DNA of 27,617 bases, taken from NCBI RefSeq assembly GCF_010093595.1, contig NW_022985441.1, forward strand, positions 196,120 through 223,736, in the 5' to 3' direction. The stretch comes from Mytilinidion resinicola (taxonomy: Eukaryota > Ascomycota > Dothideomycetes > Mytilinidiales > Mytilinidiaceae). Below the pieces are notes generated by a model. That model saw only the letters and a program-made list of their open reading frames with translations. It searched no databases and was not told the origin of the DNA. Below are positions 5,210 to 27,617 of the stretch, piece after piece; the first letter of the stretch is position 1, and every line of letters starts with the position of its first letter. The position numbers were made by a program, and so were the translations under genes.

Positions 5210-5403
5210 TGTCGCACTTTGGTGTGCATGGGGCGAAGCAGGGTTGGAAGATGATTTCAAGCAGCAGAGTATGATTCATGTGTGTGACTTGTGTGTGTGT
5301 GTCGGTCGGGTTACCCCGCCCGTTATCTATATAGCTTTAATGGCAAGCTTATTAATGCAGTTCTTGCCTCAGGCCTCTACGGCTGATGCCTTGGTCTGCG
5401 ACA
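5210..5403 (-). repeat. 5' LTR of the left copia element (194 bp)
   Basis: It begins TGTCGCA and ends TGCGACA, a perfect 7 bp terminal inverted repeat with TG...CA ends. The inner end abuts the primer-binding site. A TATA-like CTATATAGATA (minus strand, about 5324-5333) is the likely promoter. The outer 95 bases match the 3' LTR at 1-95 exactly. Confidence 0.92.
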
Positions 5404-7019: not shown

Positions 7020-10000
7020 TCACGATATGCGAAGACGTTTACATACTAACTGCGATGACTTTGAAACATAATTTCGCTTCATTGGCAGCTCCCATGCCCT
7101 ACACCGCTCACAGTCGCCGACATTTGAGCTTCTATGATCTGGAAGCCCAAATACAGAATCAAGGTACTGCTGTTGAACTAACCATTGCATGCTGTGAGGA
7201 AAACCGCCGATTGCGTAACGATGGTCGTGCCCAACGCGTACGTATATGGTGACGATCTCAGTCGGGTGCCTCACGTGGAAAATGACTCTCTTCCTGAATC
7301 TTGAACATTGGGTACATATATCAGCTGGTCCTTCGAGGTCCCCAAGACCAGTAGAGTCGATGATAAAATCCAAACCTCTTGGCGAAAGCTTAGCAAGCAG
7401 TTCAAGGACCTTGGGGCTGTCGTTCCTGCATCGGATTGATCCTTCGCAGCGATAGAAGCCATTGTCAAACTGTGGAACACAATCAAGCTCGAAGAAGAAG
7501 GAAGCTATCAAGAGAGAAAAGACAAACTCCTGAATGTCGCGGGATATGTGAGGCTGAGTATTCACCGCCTCACGCAGTTTCGGCATCATGGACGTATCAT
7601 CGATGGCGGCTGGTTCATTAAGGTGGACGTTGAAACGGAAGTATCTCTTTCGCGTTTCAGGGTCCAAGCGGCTGATAACAGCGTTCCAAGTGACCTCTCC
7701 ATCCATTGAAGAGGGAATATAACGGCCGATTCGAGGAATGAAGCCGTCTTTTAAGATATGCCTGAAGTGGGGCGCATGTGGAGACTGATCTTGCTCAGTG
7801 CCGGTTCCGAGAGACAGAACGATGTCTTCTTTACAATCACCAGGCCAGATGAGCTGACTTTCGCAGAGTCCTAATATGATAGGGTTGTTGTTTTTCATGG
7901 CCCCGTCTTGGTATGTTCCAAACAAGTCTAAATGTGCAACTTGGAAGAGACTAAAGGCTACATTAGCAAGATCTAATAGGTAGTGATTCGTGTACTAACA
8001 TTGGAGCGGCAGAGGTAGCTCTAGCACTTATGTTCTAATTAGTCAAGTACATAAGATTGTTCTAGACCTTTACTTACGCTTCCCATACAAATGGGCTTTC
8101 ATCGATACTGGTATCAATTGGCTTCACGTGTGTGTAACCTTTATCAGTCTTAGTAAAGCATCAGTGTACCAATTGAATAGCCATACCTTCACACTTCTTC
8201 ATGCTGTTATAGTTCGAGAACAAGAACGCTGAGCAGTCTGTTATATTTGTAGCAGTTACGGCAACTTTCGCACCTGCGTAGGCGGAGGTTGCTGGATCTC
8301 TTAGACGCCTGGTAGCTCCAAATGTGCGCTGAAACTGCGTTTCTAGATTAGCTGTGTTGTACTGCCCGTCCGTAATCCAGGTTCGCAGATGGTTACGCCA
8401 CCTGCGTATCAAAGAACCCGATGTATCCTGTGTTTTCCGAAAGAATTGCTCAAAAACACCGTTGAAGGTTTGATCGCATTGATGCACGCTCCAATTGTAG
8501 AGAGATAGCGTTAAAGCAATCAACCCTCCTACATATAATTAGCTGTGTCATAAATATAGAAGATTAGGAAGGCAATGTACCAGAACTTGTTCCTATAGAA
8601 ATGTCAAAAAAGTCTTGTAGACGACAGGTCCCCAAGGCCTTCTGTATCAACAAAAGACACTCCAATGGAACAACACCTCTAATTCCTCCACCATCAATGC
8701 TTAGTACCCTTGTGCCAGCTGTTGGAGGCTTGATCCTAACTTTCAGAGCGCCTGGCTTAGGTGTCGTGCCGCAGAGGATACATGCCGCGATGGTATAGTT
8801 ATACTCTTTTCCTTGATCTAAATCTCCAAAGATACGTACGCATGTATCGCATATGGCGTGTCCGCAACTAAGCATATGCTGCGGTACTCTTAAACAGCAA
8901 AAGAGGCAGGACTTTGTTGTTTTAATGTCTTTCCAATAATTCCCTATACTTGCAGTACGACTGCTACTCGCTGGGACGGTTTTTAATGACTTAAAAAGTG
9001 CACAAAAGTGCTTCTCCACTCGGCGACTTTGATACTCCCCCATGCTTTCATTAAATGCTTCAGACGATGCCTTAATGAATGAAGGGCGATACAATAATCG
9101 ATATAAGTGTCGTGGTGCGAAGCCTGATACTTCTGTTAGATCTTCTTTTAAATAAGAGCAGATATTTTTCCTTACTGTGTCCGCCTGCGGGATATGCGTC
9201 CATAAAGAAGCTGGAAGCGAGGAATCTAATAATATCCTCATACATTATCATTCCCTCTCTTCCTGCTTTAATGATAGTACTAATGTGATCTTGACTACCA
9301 TTGAGGGAGTGATTTACTCGCGTGGCTTGAACTATGTAAAATGGGTCCTGTAGAGACACTGTGCTATGCGCGAGCGCTGCTTTGATAAGGGCATTAAGGT
9401 GCCGAGCGCTGAATAACCAGCAATGCTGACGAAGCTCATTTTTGACTTGATCAGTTTGCCGTAAAATTTCTTCTTTCAAAGGGCGGTGTCTAGCTAGCTG
9501 AGAAAGACGTTCATCAATAATGAAGGTGGTAATTTGAGAGAAGAGCTTGGTGTTGTTGAGAAGTCCAGCGCAAATTTTTCGAAGACCCGTTTGATCTTTT
9601 TGAGAGGATACGACGATGAGACGAGCGCGGATCCTTTTAGGAAAAGTCGAACTTAAGATATCCCACTGTGTCAAAAAAGTGCGGATGTCTTCTAACGCGT
9701 CGCAATCGTCGACAAAAATCGTTAAAACACTAACGAACGGCAGCACTACACGGGACAGCAAAGCGTCCATTATGGTCTGGTGTTCGGTGCATGGCCAGTT
9801 TACAACATGCGCAGTAGACTTATGGCAAGATGCGGGTTTCTGCTGTGCTAATATATGCTCAGTGAAATAACCGTCGGCAAAAATGATGGGGCTTTGGCAT
9901 GTCCTTGACGTCGTTTCGACCCTAATCCCAAGAAAGCTGTCTGACTGAGGTTTCCGGAAATTATTATGGGGGAACAGGTGACGTAATGCGACATTCTTGT

Positions 10001-10166
10001 GCCCTTTTCCCAAGAAGAGTAGAAGACTTGGAGTCTGCGTTGCACTATCGGGAAGAGTGTTGATAATATGCTCTAGCTGGGAGGTATCGTTTACTGTTAT
10101 TAAAGGCTTGGAAGCTGAGGAGCTTGTTGCTAGCTGCAACCACGCAGTGTGATTCTTACAGGACAT
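7020..10166 (-). CDS. Patatin-like phospholipase with N-terminal NTPase-like region and RING finger, six exons
   Basis: Model: exons 10166-9176, 9123-8581, 8528-8187, 8138-8078, 8026-8000 and 7950-7020, giving 964 residues. All five introns are 48-52 bp with consistent phases and visible branch sites. Residues 1-330 resemble the NTPase-like N-terminus of fungal patatin proteins, but the P-loop is degenerate (GKGHKNV at 53-59). A C3HC4 RING-type finger lies at 403-448 (C403, C406, C417, H419, C422, C425, C445, C448). The patatin domain starts at about 469, with oxyanion loop DGGGIRG (474-480), nucleophile in GTSSG (Ser510), the WEAARATSAAP block and catalytic Asp670 in DGA. The Ser-Asp dyad is intact, so lipid acyl hydrolase activity is expected. 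The start is the first ATG of the frame. It is divergent from the DUF3723 gene across 160 bp. Patatin-like genes are recurrent Starship auxiliary genes. Cytosolic; no signal peptide. Confidence 0.92.
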
Positions 10167-10326
10167 CTTTGTTCTGAGAAAGAATTCGGGGGAGGGCCAT
10201 AGGCTATTATAGTCGCGCTTGCTAATGATAAATATAGAATTGTGTTGGTGTTTCGTTGTAGTTTCATCACATACTGGCTGCACCTTCCAATATAAAAAGG
10301 CGAGCGACCGTTTAAAAAATTTAAAA
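10167..10326. promoter_or_regulatory. Shared divergent promoter of the patatin and DUF3723 genes
   Basis: Only 160 bp separate the two start codons. A TATAAAAAG box at 10291-10299 faces the DUF3723 start at 10327, unusually close to it. On the minus strand, TATATTTATC (about 10228-10237) lies 62-71 bp upstream of the patatin start. The arrangement suggests co-regulation, which is inferred from spacing only. Confidence 0.55.
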
Positions 10327-12796
10327 ATGGAAAACGACGAAGTCTTTAGGAGGCTTGCGGAGACCCGAAGCTACTTTCGGGGATCTGCAAAGCTCCCTTT
10401 ACGATGCCTACAATTCGAAACGCAGGAAATGGAAGGCGCCCGGACTCTGGACGCCAAAAATATCTCCCGGTTGTTAAGAATCTATGAAACTGAGGGCTGC
10501 CATCGTCTTGAGCCGGAGCACCGTATTGCCGCATTAATCAATAAAGATATCCTCGCTCATACGCTTAGAAGAGGAGATGGAACGCGAGAGTTTCAGACCA
10601 CGGAACTTATGGATCAAAGAGAAGACCCACTTCTGCTAGAATTCGAGAACGGTGTCCATATCACGTGCTTGCATGGGCAACATAGAATTGAAGCAGCTAA
10701 ACAGTACCTAGATAACATTGAGAAATGGTGGGTTATAGACCTTTATCTCGATGGTATGCTTCACTTCCAGAAAGCGAACTGTCCTAAACTCCTAATAGAT
10801 CTCCCTAACACCATCGCTCTGCATCTACGGACAGAATACTCTAACGCTCGTGCGTTCTGTGATGGGGATATATTTCGATATCTCCGGAAGTACTCAAAAA
10901 ACGAAAATAGAGCACAGGAGAGCAAGTGGCAAGCAAGACTGAAAGATTCCGAAAGTAAAGAGAAGGATATTAAGAAGTTAGTGTCAAAGATGCGTCCCTT
11001 ATGCGACGCATTTGACGACCTTCTCCCGTTCATTGGCTTGTGGGCAACACTTCGACTTGGCACTTTTCACCGCTATTTAACGTTGAGATGCGAACAGGTA
11101 GGCTCACCTAGATCTTAAAATAAGCTGCTTACATCATTCTTAGGAACTTATTCACTACCTATCGTATATCCGTACTACGTGGTCATTCATCCTCTTAGAC
11201 GATGCAAGGCTATTTGCACTACTAGACCCTCGAACTGTTTCCTTTTTAGAGCTCCTTTCACCCCTTTATTCATCTGCAGATTGGGCAGAGATTGAAGAGT
11301 CAATGGGTAGCCGGTACCTCTTTCCAGCGATCGTAGACCAGGAAGTTAGAAACGACATCCTTCCCAGATTAAAGTCTCAAAGCCGAATTCCGTCGTTGCA
11401 CACCTTTTCCGAGGACACTAAATACTTGGAGCCTTGCGCAAAGGTCATGAAAGGGCTATTACGACCAAAGTTTAAAGGAAGCATTTTTCACGCCTTTAGA
11501 AAGGGTTTTAATCCCTCCCCCCAATCATCCGTCCAGTGCGCCGAAAAAGTATTTAAAAACACCTTGACCAACTTGCGACCTAGGGTTCAATTCCAACTCA
11601 AATATCTCGAGGCTTGGCTTTTTTCTATGCGCCATTTCCCGAAACTGATAGAGTATAATCCGCGCAAAGACCACGGTAAAATAAAGCCTAAGACGAAACT
11701 TTGCGACATACTGTGGGGTGATCTTGGTCTCTTAGTAGAGACTGGGGGCTTTAACTTACCAGAGGCTTCACGACTAGCAAACGCAAACCATCTGGAAAAC
11801 ATGGTCAAAGATTTCGTGGTTGGAGTCTGTCTAGGCGACATCTACGATGTTCAAGAGGCGGACGTAAGGGCCGTAGTTAGGAGTATCTACGATAGCATTG
11901 TCAGCATCGGCTCGACTCCGCGGATTACAACAAGCCCCCCGCTCACCATTAACGACATTCAACAATCAAAGTTACAGCGATGCGGTCGTCCATACGAGAA
12001 ATCCCATCTATTAGATCGAGAGTTCCTATTCATCACAAACATGGGCGACCTTAGGCCGGAAAGAGTTAGAGAGTATATTACCTCGTTCGGTATCAAGAGA
12101 GAGATATTTCGAGCGTTCTTTGACATTCCCTCGTTCGAAATCATGGATGATAATTTGCAACATTCCCCAGAGTCACCGGACTCGGGCCTATTCGCGGCAC
12201 ACCCGACACCCCCTCAAGCAAGCTACAGCGAGGCTACGCAAAATCAAGGCGAAGATCCTGACCCGAGAGAGCAAAGTGGAACAAGACAGCAAGGCGAAAG
12301 TTCTGGAGAAGGTCCTCAGCAAAGAGATAGCAATACAGGTAGTACGTCGAAGGAGCGGCATAGCACAGCATCTATCGGACCACTAATGTACGGTCCATTG
12401 ACGGTAAGAACAGAGGAAGACTACGAAGTATTCACGCGGAGGATCGTCCACAAACCCGTTGTGCTTTATGTCATTGAAAGTCGTAATGTGTACATGTTTC
12501 CGTCCGCCGATCCCGATTTGCGACGGCCTACTCTTCAATACCTCCTTGATCGTGGAAAGTGTGCCTTTGGTATCCCGAATATGGAGGAAAAGAGTATTGA
12601 TTGGAAAGGGATTCAGGATGTATTAACCGTAGGAGACGGTATCATTTTTGCTGTGGCGAATCTTAGATCAGCATCTTCACTCTCTGCGCGTGCTAAGGTC
12701 GGCGTAGAAGCACTAGCTGACATACGACGACTATGTGGATCGATTCCAAAAATAGATATAGAAATATTTTTAACAATGTTTCCATTTAACGGATAA
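10327..12796 (+). CDS. DUF3723 family protein, two exons
   Basis: Model: exons 10327-11097 and 11144-12796 with a 46 bp phase-0 intron (GTAGGC...TTAG), giving 807 residues. The frame continues 5' of 10327 without in-frame stops, but homolog-like sequence begins at this ATG. The N-terminal block (LDAKNISRLLRIYETEGC at 41-58, LEPEHRIAALIN at 61-72, CLHGQHRIEAA at 114-124, WWVIDLY at 134-140) is characteristic of DUF3723 (PF12520). The order of these blocks, ending in G-x-H-R-x-x-A-A, resembles ParB/sulfiredoxin-fold proteins (inference). A Ser/Gln/Glu-rich linker lies near residues 590-660, followed by a folded C-terminal part. The function is unknown. DUF3723 genes recur as Starship auxiliary genes and here pair with a patatin gene. 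No membrane segment or signal peptide is evident. Confidence 0.9.
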
Positions 12797-13247
12797 ATAG
12801 AAATCCTATTTTAAGATACAGCCATTTCTCCAAACTATATATACGAATATAAAGGCTAGTAAAAGGGCATTAATTCAAAATGACTTCTATGTAAGCTGAT
12901 AGGTTACTAGAAGCTTATATATACTAACTGGTAAATAGGGATTCAGCCCGGAAAAATCATACTAAGCCTACTAGCTCTAGTAGTTATGGTGGTACTATAA
13001 TCGCTACTATTATAGTAGTAGTTGTTATCTTATTTATAGCTACTGTTCTATACCTTCAACATCGGCTAAGCCGATACCGAAAGCCAAGGACCGAGAATGC
13101 AAATGAAGGCAGTCCTGTTGGGTGGTATAGTTGACGAGCTTGAAGCTAAGAATAGACTCTTAATAGTCCTATCTATAATCTATTTATAGATCCATGCACA
13201 CATATAAAGCTTATTCCTTCTCTTAATATTATCTATCACGATTTATT
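12797..13247. other. AT-rich intergenic stretch
   Basis: No gene seen. It holds short self-complementary runs such as actactattatagtagt-like sequence near 13000-13020. A TATAAA at 13203-13208, 40 bp upstream of the kinase-like start codon, is a plausible core promoter. Confidence 0.55.
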
Positions 13248-14220
13248 ATGGCAGCGAGTGATAAACGTAATACGCTTTTCCCTCGGTCGGAAATCAGCAC
13301 GCCGAGTCCTAAGCCCGAATTATCCCAGGGTCCTAATACGCTACAAAAACGGAAATTCATTCATGAGCGTGGCGACCCTACCCAGAGATTTCCAGTAAAA
13401 GCTTCTACGAATCCGGGACTATTTCCGCAATTTACTTCTCTCACTCTATCAAAAGGCTCGCCATGGGTAAAGTATCAAAGAGTGCTTGAGGAGGATCAAG
13501 GAGGCCCGTCTACTGTCGCCTTCAGAAAGGACTCAACATTTCCGATTGTGGTTGTAAAGAGTTATCTCGCAACAGATTCTTCTAAAGTCCAAGACGTCTT
13601 TAGAACTCGACATCCAAACATTGTTAATGTATTGGATGCTTTCTATGAAGACGATACTACATACATTGTCTACGAATATATGACTAGATCAATTGCTGAG
13701 GTCCAGGCTACCCCGTTGGGAAAGTTTGAGGAGTTTGAAATTGCTGCAATATGTAAAGAGGTACGAGCATTAAGCACAATTGTTATTGTATGCTTATATA
13801 TTGCAGGTTATTGAGGGACTTTTATTTCTACACGATCTAGATATTATTCATGGGTCCTTTACCAGTAGCATAGTACTTCTAAATAGAGAAGGAAATGTGA
13901 AGATTGGTAAGCTCTTACGTCCTACAACATATAAGATACTAAATGGAACTGTAGCTAATATCGGAGAGAGTGTCCTAATATCGAGCCCAATTAGCAAAGG
14001 TATAGATATTCAAGCATTGGGTCGCTTTATCCTGCAATTAATGGAGCCAAGCTCTATTCTCCAGCAAACGTCGACTCTCAGCCTTAAATACCCTGAATAT
14101 TGGTCTATTACTTCAAAAGAGTTTCTATCACAAGTAAAATCTGAAGCATTAATCAGTTTGAAGAACGTGCGTATCCTTCCCCCTTCTATTATTCAGGTTA
14201 GACTAAGGAGACAAGCATAA
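13248..14220 (+). CDS. Protein-kinase-like protein, probable pseudokinase, two exons
   Basis: Model: exons 13248-13760 and 13807-14220 around a 46 bp phase-0 intron (GTACGA...TGCAG), giving 308 residues. The first ~80 residues are a basic, Pro/Ser-rich tail. The kinase-like fold follows: a degenerate Gly loop (EDQGGPSTV), a Lys in VVVKSY equivalent to the ATP-binding lysine, RHPNIVNVLDAFYED, YIVYEYM, EIAAICKEV joined across the intron to IEGLLFLH, then IIHGSF where HRD is expected and VKIGKL where DFG is expected, and a late QALGRFILQLMEP. The catalytic Asp and the DFG Asp are both absent, so phosphotransfer is unlikely. A family of such inactive kinases is common in accessory DNA of filamentous fungi. 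Possible role as a scaffold or decoy is inference. The short C-lobe fits these proteins. Confidence 0.83.
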
Positions 14221-14483
14221 TTTTCTACAAATGTCACCGGGTCCAGCATGCTTAAAACCTCACGTCTTGGTGGCAGAACGAGCTGTAAGGCCAAATTGGA
14301 AGATCTTCAATGCGCCATTTTGATGACAGTGTCGAGGCTATGTAAGAGGGATATCATATATGAGGGGCGGAAGGATTGTGAAGCAAGGTTTCTGTAAGAG
14401 GAGAGTGCACGGCAGGGAGCTCGTAGATGGAATTGACGATATTCGTGTATTGAGAGACGAATCCTTAAGGAATCGTGATGCAT

Positions 14484-14509
14484 GGCCTGGGGCTATATAT
14501 ACCCCGGCC
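14484..14509. repeat. Inverted repeat around a TATA-like core
   Basis: GGCCtGGGG - ctatatata - CCCCgGCC: two GC arms with one mismatch flank an AT loop. It could form a cruciform or hairpin, or be a binding site. No gene is clearly controlled by it. Confidence 0.5.
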
Positions 14510-14538
14510 TGAGCGAGCACGTAACTCGCAGAGGCCTC

Positions 14539-14555
14539 GCAGGCTATACGCCTGC
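14539..14555. repeat. Perfect 6 bp stem hairpin
   Basis: GCAGGC-tatac-GCCTGC, 30 bp right of the preceding inverted repeat. No T-run follows, and intrinsic terminators are not expected in a fungus, so its role is unknown. Confidence 0.5.
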
Positions 14556-15304
14556 GCAGGTAGGCTGCATGAATTGGAAGGATGTATCTGTATCCTATCC
14601 GGTAAGTTAGCTATATAGTTAGTTAGATCACAACTTTGTATATATAGGCATTTCCAGCCATACAGATTTGGTGTGCGTGGTGTGCGTGGTTGTGAAGCTT
14701 GATGGGTGCGGGGTCATGCACGTTGAGCTACGCGGTACGTTGAGCTACGTAGGACTAATGAGCGCACGCGAATTAGTCCGTGGGGCGGATACCCCTGTGT
14801 GCAGTACGACGCTCCCTCTAGCGGCCGAGTTGCGCAATCGTTGTAGAATATTCTACCCGCGTGGTGTGCCGCGTTCCTGGTTCTCGGCGCCGCGTGCGGC
14901 ATTTCTCACCTTCTGGCGCAATATGCCGCCGTAGGCCGACGCACATAGAAAAACACGGCGAAACGCGAAATAGTACAATCGGCCGCAAAATGCGGCCAGG
15001 CCTGCACCCATAGGGGTCCGAAACGCCCCATCACAAACTATGGAGATACGCCGGCGCGCGGCTCATCGATAACCCGGGCAGACGCGACCTCAAGAAAGTC
15101 AACCTTTACAACACCAGCGCGCGAGGCAAAGTGAGCACTGTGTGGCATCATCAATGTTTATATTATAGACTGCGTGCTAACTACACGGTAGCAATAATAA
15201 TGGTGCACGCAACGGTGGCTCCCCTCTGGGCAACAAACACGCCCTGCCGAGCCACGTGCCGCCTCTCACCACCCACGGCCAGATACGACATGTCACATAC
15301 AACG

Positions 15305-15401
15305 CGTTCGCAGCGCGACCTGCAAGAGCCTGGCGGTGCTGGACCGCCACCCAGCTTGAAGGAGCTGGGCAGGGTAGTCCCCATATCTTAAAACAAACTC
15401 T
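15305..15401 (+). repeat. 97 bp direct repeat, copy 1
   Basis: Aligns without gaps to 15803-15899 with about nine differences. It folds as two adjacent hairpins, TGGCGGT-gctgg-ACCGCCA and CCCAGCT-tgaagg-AGCTGGG, enclosed by CCTG...CAGG. Confidence 0.8.
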
Positions 15402-15802
15402 CAATCTTTTCCGCATCACTCGGCGACACTAGCACCTCTATTCTAACTCCAGTCCCTCGCCTGAATTTGCTCGCATAGTGGTATACACGAGTCCGACGAC
15501 GCAGATCGATGTCCAGCCGGATGAAACTGGACGTAACAGTGCCTCCGCAAGAAAGAATCATTCTCACCTCACCGCGTGGCCGAGCAGCGCCCACACTGCT
15601 ATTACTTCGGCCACTCACTTCACCACTCTCACTTCGCGGCCCACGAGAACTCGGTAGCGCCAGTTTGATACCCAGCCCGAAGAAGCCAGCAAGACAGCTA
15701 CAATCATCTCGAAACAGCTCGATCCTAGCCTCTCCGCACCAGCCAACGACGCCCGCCGGCCGACCAGCCTGAAACCCCCCCCCCTGCCCTTACACTTGAA
15801 AA

Positions 15803-15899
15803 CGTTCGCAGCGTGACCTGCAAGAGCTCGACGGTGCTGGACCGTCACCCAGCTTGAAGAAGCTGGGCAGGGTAGTCCCCTTGTCTCAAAACAAACTCT
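15803..15899 (+). repeat. 97 bp direct repeat, copy 2
   Basis: Second copy, offset 498 bp. The first hairpin changes to GACGGT-gctgg-ACCGTC, a paired substitution that keeps the stem. The second becomes CCCAGCTT-gaag-AAGCTGGG, one pair longer. Sequence outside the 97 bp is unrelated between copies. Confidence 0.8.
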
Positions 15900-16440
15900 T
15901 CCTCTTCCTATCCTACGACAAGCCACGTCAAACAGTCGAACTGCGACGTCGCCAACAGCAGCGACATACAACCGCTTCCGCGGCTGCCTAACGGAATCTC
16001 CCGCCTCGCTTAACTTCACGGCGCTCCTCCACACGCTCTACCGACGACGCTTCTCCTCGCAAACCATCGCGTCTACACCAACCTCATTCTGCCGTCCTCA
16101 CCGGCCTCTGCCCGCAATCAACGGCAGCGGCACAGTACGGCAGCACTTGGGCAGACGTACCGAACGCCGCCAAACAGCCACCACCCGCCTTCTGGTACAG
16201 CAACCATCTCACGATCAGAAATGAGGCAGGGTTGATCCAGGATTCGACATCACTACAGATGAGTACAGCCGCCTGAAGGGTCAGATTGAAAGAGTCTCTA
16301 GAAGAATCAAAAAACCGGAGGACTCGCACACCGGCGTACGAGGCAGTGCACTCAAGCGGAAGCACGCCGAGGCCTTCTGTGAGGAGCTCCCACAATTCAA
16401 GGACGCACCAAACCCCTGGCGAGACAGTGCTATTGCGGCG

Positions 16441-19400
16441 ATGATAGGGTGGTCCATTTCAAGAGTAGACAACCAACCAAGCAGTCGTAAACGCGCTCCT
16501 CAACACGCTTCTGGACCCGAGTCAACTACAGGAGATACCTCATCTACTCCAACACCCCGCTCGCGGCACGCGTCACCCCAGCTTGCGCCCGTTCGTACGC
16601 GTCAGCCGAGCCCCGACAGCGACTCCTCCCCCAGCGCGTCGAGACGCACACAATATCGCCCGAACAGACAGACGATTGCCCACCGGACCCATCAACCGCC
16701 CTTTTCCTCCCCGAGCCAGCCGCCGACACCTCCACCGATGCAGGCAACCACAACCATGAATAACGATGGCAAGTCGGGGTTCAGTGATATAATGTTCACG
16801 GTGATGGACGCAGGCTCCCCCATAGGTGTCATCCAGTCATCATATGTCCTGGAGGCTGAGGTCGGCCAGCGTGTGCAAAAACTCAGAGCGGACCTAGAAG
16901 CATATCCACAACTATCCACCAACGGCCGGCTCAACCACAACATCTACATCTTGCCGTGGCAGTTCCAACACCTCCCTGTGATAGCAGACGGCACACTCAT
17001 TGCAGCCTTGAGGGATCTTACGGAGAAGGGTAGCATGCAAGCTCATATTGAGGTCCTGCCTGTGCCACCACTGCAATTCGGCCACAACCCTCTACTCGCC
17101 CAGCCGCACGGCTCCGGACTACAGCTTATCACTGGACCAGCAGGTCGTCAAGTGCAGGTACAGCCCGACCAACACTCTGGCGATGCACTCGAAACTAGCG
17201 ATGACGTGGACATGCCCGATTATAGGCAGGAGATTAAGGAAGAGTTAACAGACGTGGAGTCTGTGTTCGGAGGTGGTCCGGACAACGGTGACTTGTCGTC
17301 CAGTGGTGTCAAGCGACGCCCATCGGCTTCGCTCACAGACGCCCACACTGAAGGAGCACACAAGCGGCCAAAGGTGACGGACGATACACCCCAAGGAGCA
17401 GAGGAGGCAACGCCGCTCGAGCCAGTTACGGTCCATGGCAACAATCAAGACGACGCCGCGACGTCAGGCGAGAACGAAACTCTTGAGACTCTGGAAGGGC
17501 TGCAGCTGCTTCACCAGGACACGGCAAGCAAGCACAACAAACGCGCTCGCACCCTATCGGCTGAGCGACTCTCGCCGGATGAGAACTCAACCACCCCAAC
17601 GCCACTCGCGAAGCAGTCCAAACCCGACAATAAGAGCACCATCGTGATACGCAGCCAAACCCCGGTAGGCGCGTTTGGTCGCTCAGCATCCGTGCCGTCC
17701 TTTAACACTCCGACTCCGGCCGGCGACAAACTTCTGCAGGAGGCGGCACCGCATGCCAGCGCCTCCACCCCTCGTCTGAGCCTCCACGACGGAACAGCGG
17801 CCAGCGCTGACAACGGCGACAAACTTCTGCAAGAGGCGGCACCGCATGCCAGCGTCTCCACCCCTCGTCCGAGCCTTAATGCCGAAGCAGCTGAGGTCCC
17901 CGAAGTCAGCGACAAACTGCCAGCGACACCACTGAAAGCCAACGCCCCAAGTCCTCGTTCGAGCCGTGACATCAAGCAGACGACTGCTCCCAAAACGAAC
18001 GAATCGCAGCACTCCGCGGGAGAAACCGGCAAACCCATAGTGTTGTTAGACGACGAACCCTTCGACCCAGATGGGGAAGAGCCCGAAGAAGACGATTGCG
18101 AAGAGGACAACGACGACTCAGACGAGAAGAGGGAGTACAACCAACGCCTGTTCCTAGAGCAATTCCTCAAGCAGGGCTCCAGCGATTTGCACAGCCAACT
18201 GGCGCATGTAACACTAGCCGACATCGATCGCATACTAAGATACTTCCCTCTCATCAAGCGAGAACAACTCCTGGTTAACGAGATGTTCATAATCCCCAAC
18301 TGGGGCCTAGCACCAGGATTCAAGATCAGTCCATACCAGCTACTGTTTATAGCATGGGCATTCGAACTAGAGCGATCTATCGTAGGCGGCGGAACCTGCG
18401 CAGACGAGGCAGGGGCCGGGAAGACCATAGAGATGTATGGACTCTGGCTCATGAATTACTTCCACTATCAAAACGCCGGAGAAGTGAAGGCCGCCTGGAA
18501 GATGGGTACATACGCTGGTCAACATCTACCAAAAGGAGCACATCCAAGTGCTAAATGCCCACAAGCGAAAAAAATGCCGATTACCTGCTTCTGTGAGAGT
18601 TCCCGGGACGTGCTATACCCAAAGGCCGCACAGCGAGGCTGCACAGTACTCATCACACAACCCGGAGGCATGCCAGGGTTCGTGAAGGATGCGAAAGGAA
18701 TGCTACTCGGCGGCGACATTATGAAGCGGCCCTATCCTCCTCGGATTTCCATGCTTGCGGGTGGCTACACCTATGATGAGCTCGTTGGAAAGCTCACCAA
18801 GCGGGAGCTAAAAGAGATCGCGAAGGTCATCGATTGGACGGAAGAGGACGAGTGGGAGAGCCGGCCAGAAAACCAGTTCCACGAGGTCAACAAAGTCGAG
18901 AAGTCCATGCCGTGGCCCGAACCTACCTTCTCGAACTTGCTGGAGGGCAACACTACCAGACCTGGACGATCGTCACCACACGCCGCCCGGTTCATGCTTG
19001 TCACAACGCGGGCCAACCTTCAGAATCGAGTCATCACCCCATTCCAGACCACCCGATTCAACACGTGGAGGTTCTCTGCTAACTCCAAGATCAACAACCG
19101 TAGGCACACCAAGTCAGCTCTGCAAGTGGGACGTATATTCTGGGACGAATGTCACTTGGACGCAATGGGCAAGATTATCCCAACTTTTATTCGAGGGCAG
19201 GTGGAAGACCACCAGAAGGCCTATGGCTGCAACCCATTTATATGGGGTGCATCTGGTACGCCGGACAATGGGAACCCACTGTTGCCAATGTTTATGGTTC
19301 TAGACGGGCTGAGGACGAAGAAATGGTCAGACCGGGGGCTGAAAGGAACTAAGCACGATGTGCTCCTCGAAATCACACCAGAGTCGATAGCGGCGAAAAG

Positions 19401-20469
19401 GAAACAATTCGACACGCTAATTAACACCGCCAAAACGCACCCAGACAAGGCAATCGGCGACCCTAACTTCAAGACCCTAGCCGGCTTCTTCCGTAAGGTG
19501 GTTCCGATGTTCCAGATACGCCGTAGATCCGCAACGCTTTGGTTCGACGGTACTCCGGTAATTCCAAAAAACAGCACTCTGGAACTAGTAACCGTGCAGC
19601 TCGAACCGTGCGAGAAAGAGAGGGCAATCTTGGAGGAACTGGAAGGAATGGTCAAGATCGAGCAAACCCGCAGGCACAAAGAGCTGGTAGAGGAGTGGAG
19701 AGACAATGGCGCACTAGGACCAAAGCCTGAGGCGCCCAACGTAGCAAACTCGGCGTCGTACACTAACGCGAAGACTGCCGCAACTATTGCAGAGTTAGTT
19801 GAGCACTGGGAAGGTATAAGCAAGAACTTGAGCTGCACTATACGTGACCCAATCGTGCAAGGCTGGATCCGCAACCCCCTCTCCGGAGACTTCACCACGC
19901 TCCTCGATCGCCTAACTGCCAACTGCGCAAAGCTAGCCGAAACACTCAAGCTTTGCGAAAAAGTCCAGCAGGAAAAGAGACTCGATGGGACGAGGGCCAA
20001 GATCACTATCGCAACTCGATCCCCACTCGCTCTAGCATGCTGGTACAATCGACTGGTCCAAAAATACGACAGCAAGCAAATCTTACTGTACAAAGCCGGA
20101 GCGACGCCCAACGAGCGGAAGAAGTTGCAATCCGATTTTGACGACGACGAGAGCAAATGGGTTATGATGTGCACGCTCCATTCTGTCATGACTAGTATTA
20201 ACTTGCAACGAGCCAACTACAATCTTATGGTCGAGCCTAGCCACAAGATGTCCGAGATCCAGCAGTACTTCCATCGCTCCGACCGCCGAGGCCAGACGGA
20301 GAAGATTGTGCACGGGTACCTCCTCATCAATTCATGCTCTTCACTAGAAAGGAGGATGTTGCGATCTATGGACTTCTCCGAACTGTTGGACGAGCAGGTG
20401 TACAAGGTAAAGGATGGTGTCAAGTCTAAAGGACGCGGCACCAAGTACGACGCCATCGTGATAACGTAG
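16441..20469 (+). CDS. SNF2-family DNA-dependent ATPase/helicase-like protein, single exon
   Basis: 1342 residues from the first ATG of the frame; ATG 16738 is another plausible start, and the frame is open upstream to 16225. Residues 1-620 are mostly Ser/Pro/Glu-rich and disordered, with three 31-residue tandem repeats (about 428-520) and an acidic run at about 541-565. The two-lobed SF2 ATPase follows: Walker A in ADEAGAGKT (Lys661), DECH at 902-905 in place of DEAH, SGTP at 938-941, a motif-IV region near 1187, and motif VI QQYFHRSDRRGQT at 1274-1286. All core ATPase motifs look intact, so chromatin or DNA translocation driven by ATP is expected. No bromodomain, chromodomain or RING is visible. 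It is not close to a familiar Swi2/Rad54 protein, and its subfamily is unknown to me. Probably cargo of the surrounding element. Confidence 0.88.
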   Translation: MIGWSISRVDNQPSSRKRAPQHASGPESTTGDTSSTPTPRSRHASPQLAPVRTRQPSPDSDSSPSASRRTQYRPNRQTIAHRTHQPPFSSPSQPPTPPPMQATTTMNNDGKSGFSDIMFTVMDAGSPIGVIQSSYVLEAEVGQRVQKLRADLEAYPQLSTNGRLNHNIYILPWQFQHLPVIADGTLIAALRDLTEKGSMQAHIEVLPVPPLQFGHNPLLAQPHGSGLQLITGPAGRQVQVQPDQHSGDALETSDDVDMPDYRQEIKEELTDVESVFGGGPDNGDLSSSGVKRRPSASLTDAHTEGAHKRPKVTDDTPQGAEEATPLEPVTVHGNNQDDAATSGENETLETLEGLQLLHQDTASKHNKRARTLSAERLSPDENSTTPTPLAKQSKPDNKSTIVIRSQTPVGAFGRSASVPSFNTPTPAGDKLLQEAAPHASASTPRLSLHDGTAASADNGDKLLQEAAPHASVSTPRPSLNAEAAEVPEVSDKLPATPLKANAPSPRSSRDIKQTTAPKTNESQHSAGETGKPIVLLDDEPFDPDGEEPEEDDCEEDNDDSDEKREYNQRLFLEQFLKQGSSDLHSQLAHVTLADIDRILRYFPLIKREQLLVNEMFIIPNWGLAPGFKISPYQLLFIAWAFELERSIVGGGTCADEAGAGKTIEMYGLWLMNYFHYQNAGEVKAAWKMGTYAGQHLPKGAHPSAKCPQAKKMPITCFCESSRDVLYPKAAQRGCTVLITQPGGMPGFVKDAKGMLLGGDIMKRPYPPRISMLAGGYTYDELVGKLTKRELKEIAKVIDWTEEDEWESRPENQFHEVNKVEKSMPWPEPTFSNLLEGNTTRPGRSSPHAARFMLVTTRANLQNRVITPFQTTRFNTWRFSANSKINNRRHTKSALQVGRIFWDECHLDAMGKIIPTFIRGQVEDHQKAYGCNPFIWGASGTPDNGNPLLPMFMVLDGLRTKKWSDRGLKGTKHDVLLEITPESIAAKRKQFDTLINTAKTHPDKAIGDPNFKTLAGFFRKVVPMFQIRRRSATLWFDGTPVIPKNSTLELVTVQLEPCEKERAILEELEGMVKIEQTRRHKELVEEWRDNGALGPKPEAPNVANSASYTNAKTAATIAELVEHWEGISKNLSCTIRDPIVQGWIRNPLSGDFTTLLDRLTANCAKLAETLKLCEKVQQEKRLDGTRAKITIATRSPLALACWYNRLVQKYDSKQILLYKAGATPNERKKLQSDFDDDESKWVMMCTLHSVMTSINLQRANYNLMVEPSHKMSEIQQYFHRSDRRGQTEKIVHGYLLINSCSSLERRMLRSMDFSELLDEQVYKVKDGVKSKGRGTKYDAIVIT
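17722..18000 (+). repeat. Three in-frame 93 bp tandem repeats inside the SNF2 gene
   Basis: Copies start at about 17722, 17815 and 17908. The first two share long identical runs (GDKLLQEAAPHAS); the third is diverged (SDKLPATPLKANA). The period of 31 codons keeps the frame, so copy number could vary without breaking the protein. Confidence 0.85.
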
Positions 20470-21200
20470 CGGTAAGGCAACACTGCGTCATCGGCACGGC
20501 GGAGCTCGAGCTCAATGTCAGAACACAACGTTGGCTTAGGATGATACGCCTACTTGATGTGGGCAGTGGCTTTATAGCAAGCCTTGCTGCTGGAGAAGAG
20601 TAGCGTATATGGAGGCTGGAAGGAAGCATACTACTAGTTTAGAAAGAGTAGCATAGCATAAATAGTAACTCCAGCCACCTTACTCTAGCTCTCTGCAGTG
20701 ATAATAAGTACTTACTATAGTTAGCTGCAAAATGTAGTAAGTTAGACAAGTTTCTAGCCCCGCCGCAGTTTATAGCTAACTGCGGTAGATAGCCTAAAGT
20801 TTCTAGCCCTGCCGCAGTTTACAGCTAAGGTAAAATGCGCACATCTGCTAAAACTACAGGTTTCGCAGAACGCCAAAAAAATCCGCAGGGAACTATTTCC
20901 CTGACGTAGGGACGCACCTTACACCGTGGTGATTATGTAGGACTTGCGGGGTCATTTTACACTAGCCGGGATTGGTAAGTGCTTCAATCAGAAGTACCGA
21001 CTAGGGTGGCGACCTTGCATGCATTTACGTGTGATAGCAACAACAAGGCTAATTAATAACGACTTCCCAGTATGAGTATCAGAAGTGATGGGAGCTTGAT
21101 AGTGGTGCTATGACGACGGAATTCGGTTACGCCATGAAAGAAGGCTCTCCGCAAATCAGGCGCGAAGGCAACAACGCGAACGTAATTTTTAAGTAGGAGG
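20470..21200. other. Intergenic stretch between the SNF2 gene and the second copia LTR
   Basis: About 730 bp without a protein-like open frame on either strand. It holds the 3' flank of the SNF2 gene and the repeated hairpin at 20751-20830. Confidence 0.55.
20751..20830. repeat. 49 bp-spaced direct repeat with hairpin
   Basis: tttctagcccYgccgcagttta occurs at 20751 and 20800. Within the first unit, CCGCAGTT (20763-20770) pairs perfectly with AACTGCGG (20778-20785) over a 7-base loop. The second unit has only the left arm. Confidence 0.7.
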
Positions 21201-21500
21201 TGTTCTGAACGTTCAGGAGTGGCTACGGTACACTATTTATATAGGATTATGGGAAATCTCGATGTGTACACAGAGTCTGAGCTGTTTGAAGTCAATGTAC
21301 CCCTTATATTTTCCGGCACAGTGGGTTTTCCGTGACCCAGGGACGGACGTTACTGCGGCTGGATTATCACTGTTGAATGTCACGGTTAATGGTGGCTGAA
21401 ACGATGTGACAAGGGGTGAGAATGGATACATATATGAGGCACCCCGCCCATCCATAGCCAGACAATAAATGAAAAAGCAGACACAATCACTTGCTCAACA
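21201..21500 (+). repeat. Probable 5' LTR of the second copia element
   Basis: The right end is well placed: it ends CAACA directly before the primer-binding site. The left end is inferred from TGTT at 21201, which matches AACA at the end and gives a 300 bp LTR. A TATA-like tatttatatagg lies near 21234-21245. No second copy is present to confirm the boundary. Confidence 0.6.
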
Positions 21501-21514
21501 GGTTATGAGCCCGG
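21501..21514 (+). promoter_or_regulatory. Primer-binding site, half tRNA-iMet type
   Basis: GGTTATGAGCCCGG directly follows the LTR end. Its GGTTATGAGCCC is complementary to the initiator tRNA-Met anticodon stem-loop. The left copia element uses the same 11-base core. Confidence 0.8.
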
Positions 21515-21823
21515 CTCGCACGATTCAGGTTTTGAGAGATATATACCTACAGCTAAGCTTCCGCAGCAAGTGATGATCTTATGAGCGATGAAGTTAATAT
21601 CTGCGAAACAGTCCAATAAGAACTCGGAACAAGACGGATCACCCTCCATCCGACGAAACCACAAACACCATAAATGTGATAGGGGTAGATATCACAGTGA
21701 TAACCCCTGTGATAGGCGAATTGAAACCATGCCGAAACGGAAGGGGCAGAATCGACCCCACAACATGCGCTCTACGTCGTGCATATGAAATGACACCGAG
21801 AATACAAGAAGAGGTCGGGAAAG

Positions 21824-22528
21824 ATGTCAACTCCAACGACAAGATCGCGAATTGACCTCCTCAAACCGCAACCACTACGAAAGAAACAGCGAAACAAAAC
21901 CCACCGCTGGACAAGAGAGGAAGTAAATGACATCTCTTATCTTCGGCTAGACCGTAAGTGGACTTGGGGTCAGATTCAAAGCACGCTTTTCCCGTCAACA
22001 TCGGTTGGCGCAGTCAAGATCGCATTCTTTCGCCTACCTCTTGAGGAGCGTATACGCCGCGCGTTAATCGTGTCCTCCCGCACCGGGGCCATTGAGCACT
22101 CCCGGTTTGAACAAGAACCAGACGCCCTATCCTCTAAGGCTGGGAAGAAACGTATCACCAACAACAACAATATCACGCGTTACAACCTCCGACCAAATAG
22201 ACCCACGAGTTTCCAGGGAATTAGGTCGCAATACCCGGTTGACCGCCGACGATTTCCCCACTTCTCCAGGGCGTGCGAAAAACACTCTGAGCTACGCAAG
22301 GCACCAGACGGAGACTACGAGCCCCCTTCCCATTCGCCCACGCCAGGCTTGTCTGATCGCAGCCCTTCTATCATCTCAAGCAAACTAAGTGAAGCTTCAA
22401 GCCTCGAGCTTTTTGGCCTAGAGGCACGCTCCGCCACCGCATCCGACTACGCCACCTCTGTCGCCCCAAGCCCGCTCAGCAACGAATCAGAGTTTTTCAG
22501 CGCAGAGGAGCACCCAATTTCACCATGA
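21824..22528 (+). CDS. Upstream ORF of the second copia element, SANT/Myb-like
   Basis: 234 residues from ATG 21824. After a basic N-terminus (RSRIDLLKPQPLRKKQRNK), residues about 27-75 contain HRWTREEVNDISYLRLDRKW...GAVKIAFFRLP. The spacing of W, EE, L and W fits a SANT/Myb trihelix. The rest is Ser/Pro-rich and probably disordered. The ORF ends in ATGA, where its TGA overlaps the ATG of gag, so gag could be translated by termination-reinitiation. Most copia elements have no such ORF. A role in nucleic acid binding or integration targeting is inference. It is intact although the element is truncated. Confidence 0.7.
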   Translation: MSTPTTRSRIDLLKPQPLRKKQRNKTHRWTREEVNDISYLRLDRKWTWGQIQSTLFPSTSVGAVKIAFFRLPLEERIRRALIVSSRTGAIEHSRFEQEPDALSSKAGKKRITNNNNITRYNLRPNRPTSFQGIRSQYPVDRRRFPHFSRACEKHSELRKAPDGDYEPPSHSPTPGLSDRSPSIISSKLSEASSLELFGLEARSATASDYATSVAPSPLSNESEFFSAEEHPISP

Positions 22529-23886
22529 CCAACATTACAAAGTTTGAGCAATTCGGCCTGAATGCGTTCTACAATGCCATTCCAACATTGGACAACGCTA
22601 GTGACTGGTTCAGGTGGAACCAGAAGGTTAACGAATTCATCCGAATATCTGCTGTTGCCGAAGACGGAGCAACTCCACCTATAGAAGAAGAGGATGCACA
22701 ACAATGGCAGCACCGCCATAAGTTCTACACGGCGATGATCGCAGCAAAGCTGACACACAATGCCGCGCAACGGATCAATGCTTTTGAAATCCATCAAGTT
22801 CAATCTCTTTTACAGGCAGTTAAGGAGAACTTTAAACCAGAAGGTTCAGGGACGTATGTCAACCTACAGCGGCGGTACATGTCCCTCACGCGAGAAAAAT
22901 ATGGGAGCACTCAGGCCCTAGGAGCCGAGATTAGAAGGATTCACGCTGAGAAACTTCTCCTCGACCCTGATTGTGTTACTTCGGAGATTGAGCGCACATT
23001 CTTCTTCATGCACGCGCTGGGCGCTGAATACAAAGGCTTCCGTAATCATATCTTCAGGCAGATGGACCTCGTCAACGATAGAGACGCAAACGGGCATATC
23101 ATTAAGGCTGCACCCACATTCGACTATGTCGAAGGCAAGGCAATTAAGGAAGAACATAGGAAGGGGCAGCTGGGAAAACAATCAAGTGACGTGCAGGCGC
23201 TCCCTGCTCTTACTCTGATTCGGGGGCCTGGCCAGAAGAACCTTATTCCGTCATCCGATGGAACCACATGCCAAATCGAGATTAACAACGTTCCCTACTG
23301 CTCCTTCTGCCGAAAGCCCTACCACATCGAAACCGAATGCTTCAAGAAAAATCCGAGGCTGAAGGGCCAAGGGAAAGATGAAGAGGGACACAAGGCAAGG
23401 GCACAGGGCTCGCAAGCCAACGGTCGCAAACCGTCAAAGAGACAGCACTCTACTGACGATGAGGATAACGATGCGGGTGGCCCGAAAGACCCAAAGAAGC
23501 CCACCTTCATGGTAATAAAGGCTACAGGAGAAGACGTCAATGCGGCATTTAGGAAGGGCGTTGGAAGCAATTGCGCCGCACTCACCCATACCCTCGCGAT
23601 GATGACTACAAGGACGCTCCCAATCCGCGACGCCTGGATCATCGACAGTGGCTGTGCCCAGCATGTGTGCAACAACGCCTCGAAGTTTATTCAGATGGGC
23701 ACGTACCATGGGCCCGCACTTCGGAGCGTTAATGCATCCACATCTCCCTCAGGAGCGGTCGACTGCATTTCCCGCGCGCCGCCTTCTAGACAACATCGCC
23801 CCGTCCAGCTTAGTCAACCTCGTATACTTCTTTTAACCTGCTTGCTTTGCTTTGCCTGCTCCGCTGCGCTGCACAACATATGGTAG
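22525..23886 (+). pseudogene. Copia gag with start of protease, 3'-truncated
   Basis: The frame opens at ATG 22525, overlapping the ORF1 stop. Gag features: a UBN2-like region (SDWFRWNQKVNEF, then long helices to about residue 200) and a CCHC knuckle CSFCRKPYHIETEC (C259, C262, H267, C272), followed by a charged linker. A protease active site D374-S-G lies in AWIIDSGCAQHVCNN. The copia-like sequence stops at about residue 410 (SVNASTSPSG). The last ~43 codons to the stop at 23886 are unrelated read-through of the flank. The element is therefore non-autonomous, lacking integrase and reverse transcriptase. Its gag differs clearly from that of the left element. Confidence 0.88.
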
Positions 23887-24094
23887 CTGAAATTCTTCCT
23901 TGATCTGCTGCAGTACGCGATTAAGCCCCGCTGCCACAATGCTACGTTTTGTCTGAACTCGCTCTGTGTCATTTTATTTTGCACGGTCTTACTGCGTCAA
24001 GACCCGCTCTTCCTCTCAGCTCGCCGTTCAGCTCACTACCCTCCGCAGGTGAAGCGCCAGCGCCCCCGATCGAGCGCGCCCAAATTGAAGTCGG

Positions 24095-24120
24095 GGTCGA
24101 AGGTCGAAGGTCGAAGGTCG
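24095..24120 (+). repeat. Heptamer microsatellite ggtcgaa, about 3.7 copies
   Basis: Perfect tandem copies of ggtcgaa, ending ggtcgc. Confidence 0.8.
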
Positions 24121-24306
24121 CTCGTACTCCTGAGCGCTCTCACATGCCCTTGTTGAGGGGACGCGCAGTCGAAGCCAAGCATCTAGCAGCTTTTGGCGTT
24201 AGATCAGCTCCTCGCTGATATGAAAAGCGATTTACTAGTAGGTTATTGGAAGTCGCCTGGAACTTCGATAACGTAGGCGTTGCATGTCAGAACATTGGCG
24301 GAGGCG

Positions 24307-24585
24307 CTAAAAGCGGATAGGTCTTCGGGCGTATCCGAGGATGTGTCGCCGGGCCTCTCCGTCCTTAAAGGGAGATAGGGTGTCGGCAAGGTGCTGTCTA
24401 CCAGGCTGGTGACAGACATCCAGGTGGAACTGCGAAAGGTACTGTAACGCCCTGTAGTGATGAATCAGAAGCCTCAGCTCGCTAAAAGCCTGTTGGAAAG
24501 CCTTGTAGGAGTCGCGGAGCTCTGCGCGGTCGTTGGCGCGAGTACAGCGGGTATGGCGGGCACCTTTACCGTAGGACCGCTCGGA
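24307..24585 (-). other. Unassigned open frame without a start codon
   Basis: 92 codons open between an upstream TGA (24588-24586) and a TAG (24309-24307), minus strand. The translation looks protein-like and helical (RAELRDSYKAFQQAFSELRL near the middle, then HHYRALQYLSQFHLDV). There is no ATG near its 5' end, so it would be an exon or a fragment. I do not recognise the family, and chance in a GC-rich stretch is possible. Confidence 0.3.
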
Positions 24586-24774
24586 TCAGCCTTTCAGGTG
24601 TCATCGCTTCACAGCGTTAACCTTCGAGTAACATAACAATTCCGCTCCTAGTTACACTGATAGCCTACCAATAACATCTGGCGTTACCTATAGTTGGCGA
24701 TAAAGACGAAGAACTAAACTAAGAGTTATTTCGTACGTGATTGCGTAAAGTAATAGGTTGAGAGCCAGCAGGTA

Positions 24775-27316
24775 TTAGTGAGACACTTTATGTACATCAT
24801 GTGCATGCCTTTTGAAATGCTTTTCGCCACTAAGTTCCGCAGAACATCTGGGATGCTCACATTCAAAGTCTTTCTGATACTCGGGCTCCTTGAAGTGGGT
24901 GTCCACATGCTTGTTAAGGACATCTTTTCGCCGTCTGCAGCGCATCCGTTGTCCGTACAGGAGCTCGGTGTCGCCTATACAAATGAGGCACACTGGGTAG
25001 GGAAGCTCCATGGGAAATGGGCGCTGGCCAGCCTCATCTTCGTCAGCCGCAAATGCGCATTCTTCTTTCTCGTAAGCTTGACTTATTCGCGAGTCAAAGC
25101 AACCAAGAATCGGGCCTCTATCCTGGCCATTATTCAGGGCCTTCTGTCGCTTGCTCTTAACGGATGGCTCGACGATTTCGAAGACAAAAGAATTCGGCTT
25201 GTTTCTTTTTGAAGCTTTGGGCTGACGAGTTTCTTGTCGACGACAAAGCCTAGCCATGGCGGAGATAAAGTTGATGCGAGCATTATGGGTTTCGAACGGC
25301 TTAAAGAGCATGCTAGCAACGGTGGCCCGCTCTCGAATTTCGAAGTCAGCGACCGGGAGGGTTAGAACCTCAGTCGCCGGCTTCCCGCTTAGCTGCCTAG
25401 CTATCTCGATCGTGTCGACCGAGTCGTGGAAATCGCGAATGGCTTTATCCACTCGTTTTCGCCTTAAAGCATTGTATGTTTTAGCAATCCATTTTTTACA
25501 GTCCTTATACTGCTTGTACAGTTCGGTTCCTTTGCCTTTTATAATAGGATAGTACCCTTGAGAATGAAGCTCTTTTGCGTATCCTGTACGTTCGTTACGA
25601 AGCGCTACAAGCTTAGGATTGTTCTGGACCTCTTCTAGCTGGCTGTCGTTAAGGTCCGCCGGTGCGCGTCGATCCCGCGATAGACCCATCCTCGCGACGG
25701 ATTCAATAAGGAGATCTTCAGAAGGACTTCCAAAATAGATGGCCTGAAAATCGCGTGCAATGTGCGTCGGAGTATAGTACTTTTCATATGTACTGCCAAG
25801 ATGGCCCATATTTTGGTTCCGCTCTGCCTCAGTCATGTTGCCTGGCGGATTCCAATGGTATTAGCATAGGAAAGAAGAAGGGACTTTAGGAAATTGCTCT
25901 TACGATCAATGTTCCTGCCTGAAGCTCGTCGTAGCTGATATAGCTCTAATGCTACTTTAAAGCCTGCAACACGCCCTAATCGCACAAATATGTCCCGATA
26001 CTTTGCATATGGGAACGCCTTATCTTTTAAGATTTCAACACCTCCAGTCGTATGCTTGGCGTCGCAGAAGAAGGGCCGATTCAATACTTCATGGTCCCAA
26101 TCAACATAAAGCACGTCGCGGTGGGCCGGTATAACTAGGTTAAAGATCTCTTGAACGCTCTTAAACTTATTCCGGAACGCGTTTTGGCTAACGCCAATAG
26201 ACAAGATGTGTGAAACAATACAGAACGCAGGAAGTCCTTCAAGGTGGAACGTGTATTTCTTCCTATGGTGGTAGAAGTAGTTAGCGAGATGCATTACAGC
26301 ATATATCGTGCAACTCACGGTTTCCCATCTTTCTCCTTGTTCTTAACGTGCTCAAGGTTCACATTCGCAGCGATTGTAGTCTTGGTAGGGTCTTCAAGAC
26401 TGCGTACTACCATAATTTTGATGTCTTTAAACGATAGCGCCATGTTACTACCTCTGTTGCTTGCGCTTTCGACAAGTGCTCCTGGTCTTGTAGCTGTTGC
26501 TGCGCTAAGGAGAAGAAGAAGTGAAATCTGGACTCGAATAAAGCCGTGAAGAGGTTTGGTATCGTCTACCCAGAGGGCGTGGAGAATGGCGTAAAGGTCC
26601 TGGACGAACATAGCGTGCTTTTCCTTTTCCGATTTGTCAAGCTTAAGGCTTGGGATCCACTTCCACAGCTGTTAGTCTAGCTTTACAAGAAGAGTATATG
26701 GCCAGAACTTACATTGCAAACATCAGTAAGGACATCACCGTTCATCTTATGGCTTGTAAGGTCCATATAGCACATGCTAATTCGTTTCCAATAGGTCCGC
26801 ATTGAGCTCTCCTTCTTAATTCGAAAATGTTTCTTCCGCCAGCGGAGATATGCTTTAAACACCTTTGGATCGCATTCACGCAGCTGGTTCTCTGGGTTTT
26901 TTTTGGTTGTTTTTTGAATCTTTAGGCAGTACCTAGTTTGCAGCAATTAGAGGGTGTAATGATGAGCTTGTGGGAATTTTTATAATTTACCTCTCCCAGA
27001 ATTCGCCTTCCCTCTTCCATAGTTTCTGGGTATAAGGAGTATGGTTCGGTTTCGCGGGTCCGTCCTCCCCTAACTCAGCAATGTCTTTCAGTATTTCCTC
27101 AGCTTCGGAGTCCAATTCCACGTCTAATCCTGCATCTAACTCTGCATCCGACTCTGCATCTGACTCTGCATCTGATTCCGTATCTGGATCCGTGTCTAGA
27201 TCTGGGTAGATGTCTGGGTCCGAGTATGAGTCCGAGCAGTCCGAGTCGCATTTAGCAAAGTCTAAGTCCGGACCTAGGCTTGCATGGGGAGGCGAGTATG
27301 GGTTTTGATTTGACAT
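24775..27316 (-). CDS. DUF3435 tyrosine recombinase, Starship captain, five exons
   Basis: Model: exons 27316-26991, 26932-26713, 26659-26319, 26262-25904 and 25841-24775, giving 770 residues. The introns (58, 53, 56, 62 bp) have good donors and branch sites, and every phase fits. The start is the first ATG. Exon 1 encodes an acidic Asp/Ser-rich N-terminus. The recombinase core (PF11917) shows Arg240 in TATRPGALVE, RLGRVAGF, the Y404-x-x-R407 box in LYQLRRASGRNID, then AERNQNMGH with His429 and YEKYY, where Tyr438 stands nine after His429 as in other tyrosine recombinases (Tyr437 is the alternative). The C-terminus carries two C2H2-like fingers (C700, C703, H727, H731; C743, C748, H761, H766), typical of the family. 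It would cut and join the Starship ends. No stop or frameshift is seen. The transcription direction places the element to the left. Confidence 0.93.
27130..27185 (-). repeat. 12 bp minisatellite in captain exon 1
   Basis: Imperfect tandem copies of tctgcatctgac encode repeats of S-D-A-E in the acidic N-terminus. The unit is a multiple of three, so the frame survives copy-number change. Confidence 0.75.
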
Positions 27317-27617
27317 AGTCTTTGGATTCACGGCCCTGGTAGCTAGCGCTCTCGTCGCTCTTGAAACTGGAGCCGTTTCGATCGCCGCACCGCCGACTTT
27401 GTGTTATTATGCTAGTCTAGCGGGTACGTAAGTAGTTGGAGTCGGAAGAGAGGACGTAGTCTGGCGACGACGAGTTTGCCGAACGGGTAAGTTGAGCATT
27501 GTAGATGAGGATTAAATCGCCGGAGAGGAAGTGGAACGAAGATGGTGTAGGGGGAAAGAGAGAGGAAGTGGAACGAGGATGGCGAAGGGAGAGAGGGCGA
27601 AGAGAGAGAGAGAGAGA
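27317..27617 (-). promoter_or_regulatory. Captain 5' region and candidate Starship end
   Basis: No gene is called. The captain frame is open upstream for about 30 codons without an ATG. A 30-codon minus-strand frame starting MLNLPVRQTRRR could be an upstream ORF. TTAC (minus strand) occurs at 27428-27431 and 27487-27490; TTAC-like motifs are used as targets by several Starships. Two 37 bp tandem copies and a GA microsatellite end the window. The transposon edge may lie here, but no repeat pair can be tested. Confidence 0.4.
27523..27596 (+). repeat. Two imperfect 37 bp tandem repeats
   Basis: gagaggaagtggaacgaRga starts at 27523 and again at 27560 with few differences. The array runs into a (ga)n microsatellite to the end of the window. 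Confidence 0.8.

Follow-up and report, generated by a model that had tools for sequence, protein, structure and literature searches.

An apparently intact captain of a probable Sanctuary-type Starship and its mutated sibling copies in the genome of Mytilinidion resinicola

Based on the sequence comparisons presented here, we describe a captain gene, very likely the intact captain of a Sanctuary-type Starship, at the right edge of a 27,617-nucleotide stretch of the Mytilinidion resinicola genome (contig NW_022985441.1, positions 196,120 to 223,736; the whole stretch is referred to as the window), together with two sibling copies of the same element that appear to have been wrecked by repeat-induced point mutation (RIP). 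Starships transport genes from one fungus to another, and whether such an element remains able to move depends on an intact captain. The gene (24775-27316, minus strand) consists of five exons: exon 1 (26991-27316), with its start codon at 27316 and an acidic Asp/Ser-rich N-terminus that is found in homologues too; exon 2 (26713-26932); exon 3 (26319-26659), which carries ATRPGA (R240) and K288; exon 4 (25904-26262), which carries YQLR (Y404, R407); and exon 5 (24775-25841), which carries GH 428-429, Tyr438 nine residues after the His, and the C-terminal Cys/His pairs. Their lengths (326, 220, 341, 359 and 1067 nt, respectively) add up to exactly 770 codons and a stop, in line with the original prediction of a five-exon, 770-residue DUF3435 tyrosine recombinase. 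The four introns are all GT-AG (58, 53, 56 and 62 nt), and retention of any of them introduces a stop at or before codon 441 in 15 of 15 combinations, computed with the acceptor of intron 2 at 26669. This acceptor is ambiguous from the sequence, position 26669 giving 773 residues and position 26660 giving 770, and the Pfam score is equal for both models. The three residues added by the former are missing in 12 of 14 aligned homologues and fall at gaps in the other two; acceptor 26660 is therefore preferred and 26669 was dropped. Upstream, a leader (27317-27617, minus strand) runs to the window end, where a GA-rich minisatellite begins (27523-27617).

The spliced protein matches positions 1-396 of the 418-position PF11917 profile with 254.6 bits (E 2.3e-75), compared with 116.7 bits for exon 5 by itself. 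The core motifs claimed beforehand are those found in exons 3 to 5, and the C-terminal zinc fingers that had also been proposed correspond to Cys/His pairs at CLIC 700, HVDTH 727, CEHPRC 743 and HFKRH 757. At 245 conserved columns, defined by the agreement of at least 13 of 14 homologues, the captain deviates 12 times and at no catalytic column, the leave-one-out counts for the other 14 rows of the alignment ranging from 1 to 84. With a profile of 30 captain homologues, the PDB yields nine matches up to an E of 1, every one a zinc-finger chain. Foldseek gives 82 matches up to an E of 10, none of which reaches 0.001; the top six are recombinases. Scored by exon across the genome, 31 of the 40 PF11917 matches listed, a lower bound, contain at least one stop and nine are stop-free, three of these nine being the window captain's own exons. 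The open frame and the strong profile match thus confirm, at the level of sequence, the predicted intact DUF3435 recombinase with the motifs and frame first described for it.

Two sibling copies of the element are located on contigs C17 and C13. The captain end of the window (23751-27617) corresponds to C17:54293-58159 and, from 23767, to C13:41636-45479, while the cargo stretch (5832-21370) is colinear with C17:24216-43045 at 81-87% DNA identity, with one 3.3-kb interruption in C17. The cargo is matched in part at C13:4163-15499, and no C13 match to window 14621-21790 is found among the 40 candidates scored of 147. Captain and cargo are repeated in the same order across more than 20 kb, which does not fit a Crypton, a short element with little besides its recombinase. 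C>T and G>A differences are the mark of RIP, and the siblings differ from the window copy by almost nothing else: 636 of 641 differences over 3867 bases of the captain end in C17 and 658 of 659 over 3844 bases in C13 are of these two kinds, as are all 272 differences in the C17 cargo piece compared base by base (1797 bp). Differences of other kinds occupy 5 of 3747 columns in a three-way alignment of the captain end. The changes lie mostly at CpA/TpG and CpG, and the composite RIP index of the captain end is -0.09 in the window, 1.14 in C17 and 1.28 in C13. In the captain frame, 41 stops are present in C17, 36 in C13 and none in the window; the start codon is altered in both siblings, and two of four splice donors in C17 and three of four in C13 are altered. 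Since the siblings differ almost only by RIP, the three copies would have been nearly one sequence beforehand, where read. The C17 and C13 copies are, judging from these substitutions, made derelict by RIP, and the window copy is without visible RIP. The two siblings share 483 RIP sites where dinucleotide context predicts about 375, an excess too small to tell joint from separate mutation of the two copies. Two further loci were noted in this comparison. Near the other end of C17, a partial copy of the cargo (G000:C17:1216373-1220177, minus strand; window 10806-14617) is 82% identical to the window. A third contig contains DUF3723, a match to the helicase region of the window (77%) and captain remains within 25 kb (G000:C12:1173021-1197875), with many stops, and is probably the site of another derelict Starship.

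The clean state of the window copy bears on the order of events, for this copy would either have arrived after the siblings were mutated or have escaped RIP. That it coexisted with them and escaped, or that RIP had weakened, has a considerable chance of being right, somewhat short of even; this concerns timing only and not the identity of the gene. It is favored by a gag-like repeat of copia origin that is nested in the element (21371-23758, plus strand), at whose site C17 has an 11.2-kb stretch instead: a copy on contig C14 is 99.1% identical over 1759 bp, so some duplicates stay clean. Three other copies of this piece are, however, only 81-83% identical, and RIP-like decay thus reaches that retroelement family as well; moreover, two Starship copies that otherwise barely diverge were heavily hit while the third shows no RIP. 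We tentatively raise the possibility that the clean copy entered the genome by crossing or by horizontal transfer after its twins were wrecked, and that it can still move.

The siblings also define one end of the element. C17 and C13 are alike up to ...GATGCATTTCCACTACTATATATATTTA and then diverge abruptly into unrelated flanks, the common 5' terminus reading TAAATATATATAG. Such differing flanks provide indirect evidence of insertion polymorphism. It is located upstream of the captain start codon position by 756 bp in C17 and by about 909 bp in C13, a difference mostly due to the length of the minisatellite. Between captain and terminus, this GA-rich minisatellite (near 5250-5680 of loci L031 and L032) varies in length from one sibling to the other. 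The window copy's own terminus falls outside the window, and the proximity of captain and terminus is accordingly a feature seen in the siblings. A genome-wide search with a 26-base terminus pattern, allowing up to three mismatches, retrieved three sites (C17 and C13 without mismatch, C31 with three mismatches), against zero genome sites for the reversed control. At the third site, a terminus of this kind accompanies what is left of a more distant captain (C31:19119-20368); these AT-rich remains are 42-51% identical to the window captain across the first three exons of the latter. Outside the terminus, at an offset common to the three loci and separated from it by three variable bases, lie the hexamers ATAACT (C17), ATATCT (C13) and ATACTT (C31, one mismatch), resembling the target-site consensus of Sanctuary, given as ATWHCT in PMC12506042. 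Among 200,000 random triples (27,457 segments of ten AT-rich loci), a fraction of 3.5e-5 matches as well at any common offset, with the mismatch tolerance fixed after looking and the triples taken as independent. As for direct repeats, the ATWHCT-like hexamer is seen on the 5' side of the siblings. The 3.1 kb left of the C17 match, read for the 3' edge, contain no recognizable element end; they harbor an AT-rich repeat and a transposase-like pair of open reading frames (ORFs), presumably of the pogo type.

These boundaries bear on how the copies arose. The C17 and C13 copies are both less than 60 kb from a contig start, as would be expected had they spread by segmental or subtelomeric duplication rather than by transposition, but we consider this improbable: all three loci, including C31, diverge abruptly at the same base into unrelated flanks, and the hexamer recurs at the same offset outside the terminus. 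That the window gene is a solo or domesticated DUF3435 gene near Starship debris, moving no cargo, is more improbable still, for although the window copy's own edges lie outside the sequence read, captain and cargo recur together and colinearly in C17 and the captain is just inside the common terminus in C17, C13 and C31. Transposition of a Starship is thus the preferred explanation, and the earlier suggestion of a recently mobile element is supported by two copies elsewhere that diverge almost only by RIP, with a common 5' terminus and unrelated flanks.

The closest relatives of the captain point to a known group. Among about 5.8 billion proteins (7992 candidates scored), 53 homologues were found at E up to 0.001, although a mis-spliced captain model of very different length would escape such a search. 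The top identity is 71%, so that the exact window captain is not among them. One homologue, P0002, has 786 residues with R260, A263, K308, Y424, R427 and Y458; the captain of Sanctuary as printed in PMC12506042 has the same length and putative active-site residues, and the otherwise unnamed record P0002 thus fits it. The window captain is 63.2% identical to P0002 over 760 columns (BLASTP). Similarly, P0026, a partial gene model from Alternaria ventricosa, agrees with P0002 at 98% of aligned columns, or at 90.4% of 594 columns by gapped BLASTP, and is about 58% identical to the window captain over 608 columns. Since the captain of Frontier is reported in PMC11857905 to be 98.1% identical to the Bipolaris captain, P0026 fits the Frontier captain, which would place it in the same group as that of Sanctuary. 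In a 26-row tree with a midpoint root, the window captain is grouped with a Zopfia protein (84/77, below the starred level), and both fall into a 21-row clade (100/100) together with the Sanctuary and Frontier captains. Membership of a navis is assigned at a captain identity of at least 50% with 25% coverage in PMC12289983, and by pairwise BLASTP, as distinct from MMseqs2 clustering, the window captain appears to lie above this threshold for the Sanctuary navis.

The resemblance to Sanctuary of Bipolaris sorokiniana (PMC12506042) extends beyond the nearly full-length 63% identity of the captains and their common putative active site to a C-terminal finger region, a captain that is first in the element and points inwards, and ATWHCT-type sites. 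The systems differ in that the Sanctuary captain is about 350 bp from the 5' edge, the distance here being 756 bp in C17 and about 909 bp in C13. The Sanctuary navis has a chromodomain gene within the final 3 kb of its 3' end; here none of the 55 PF00385 (Chromo) matches in the genome falls in the sibling spans that were mapped, the 3' edge being outside the mapped part. Sanctuary also carries ToxA cargo, whereas none was seen in the window, where no search aimed at ToxA was made. Frontier of A. ventricosa (PMC11857905), whose captain belongs to the same group, differs in its cargo. RIP of duplicated Starships is already known: Starships of Paecilomyces and Spiromastigoides are described as immobilized by RIP in PMC11623301, and the C17 and C13 copies look like them in this respect. 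In contrast to those derelicts, a near-identical copy without visible RIP is present in the same genome here. Our literature search retrieved no paper joining 'Mytilinidion resinicola' and 'Starship', which shows little, subscription papers and preprints being outside its reach.

The Sanctuary-type Starship of M. resinicola is thus, on comparative grounds, a recently mobile element present in several copies, one of them without visible RIP: an intact captain accompanied by near-identical, RIP-wrecked copies suggests that the element jumped not long ago. In the mechanism that we envisage, captain molecules would bind the element ends and cut through Tyr438 in the manner of the Cre and Xer recombinases, and the element would have moved by excision and re-insertion beside ATWHCT-like hexamers, thereby occupying three or more genomic sites; RIP would then have turned the C17 and C13 copies derelict. 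The window copy may still be able to move, a present-day mobility that we infer from the intactness of its captain alone. One clean copy and two RIP-mutated ones, almost identical before RIP, can be matched within this genome; they allow the damage to be followed at each base and make it possible to test how Starships persist in RIP-competent fungi. The sibling set also defines the 5' terminus without a second strain. Furthermore, Sanctuary-type captains would be extended to the Mytilinidiales from two named elements, both in crop-associated Pleosporales, in the reports considered here. If the clean copy did arrive late, a Starship destroyed by RIP at two sites would have been re-established at a third, and RIP would thin Starships out but not eliminate them, as unmutated copies continue to come in; a single target hexamer would also still be shared by captains with an identity of only about 42-63%.

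The remainder of the window contains cargo and nested elements. A DUF3723 accessory gene (10213-12796, plus strand) is made up of the ORFs 10213-11118 and 11144-12796 (PF12520, 193.7 and 227.6 bits, respectively), which are joined into 845 open codons by an intron at 11098-11143, the one losing least among five frame-keeping candidates. A patatin-like phospholipase accessory gene (7020-9244, minus strand; PF01734, 74.4 bits, profile 1-187 of 191) can be joined into an open piece of 674 codons by removal of introns 8580-8529, 8186-8139, 8077-8027 and 7999-7951, whose splice sites were picked by hand. Typical Starship accessory cargo is thus present near the captain, both genes belonging to classes named as Starship accessory genes in PMC12506042; no NLR or ferric reductase was recognized among the window ORFs scanned. 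An intronless 1414-codon ORF (16225-20469, plus strand) encodes a putative SNF2/helicase-like protein, which shares 43-47% identity with each of three proteins that bear SNF2 and/or helicase domains; it has no Pfam match at E 0.001, and its best E in a PDB sequence search is only 0.47. Searches of NCBIfam with six cargo ORFs gave matches only far under the cut-off, and Rfam and tRNA scans of the whole window gave zero hits each. Two overlapping ORFs (13227-14220, plus strand) resemble a split protein-kinase-like gene, with a weak match (E 0.0048). Finally, a nested copia-type retrotransposon with RVT_2 and Pol_BBD matches (1-5834, minus strand) runs out of the window at its left edge, its right end being placed at the start of the C17 homology. 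Its RIP index is low, and it looks frame-broken, as its reverse transcriptase match is split over two overlapping frames.
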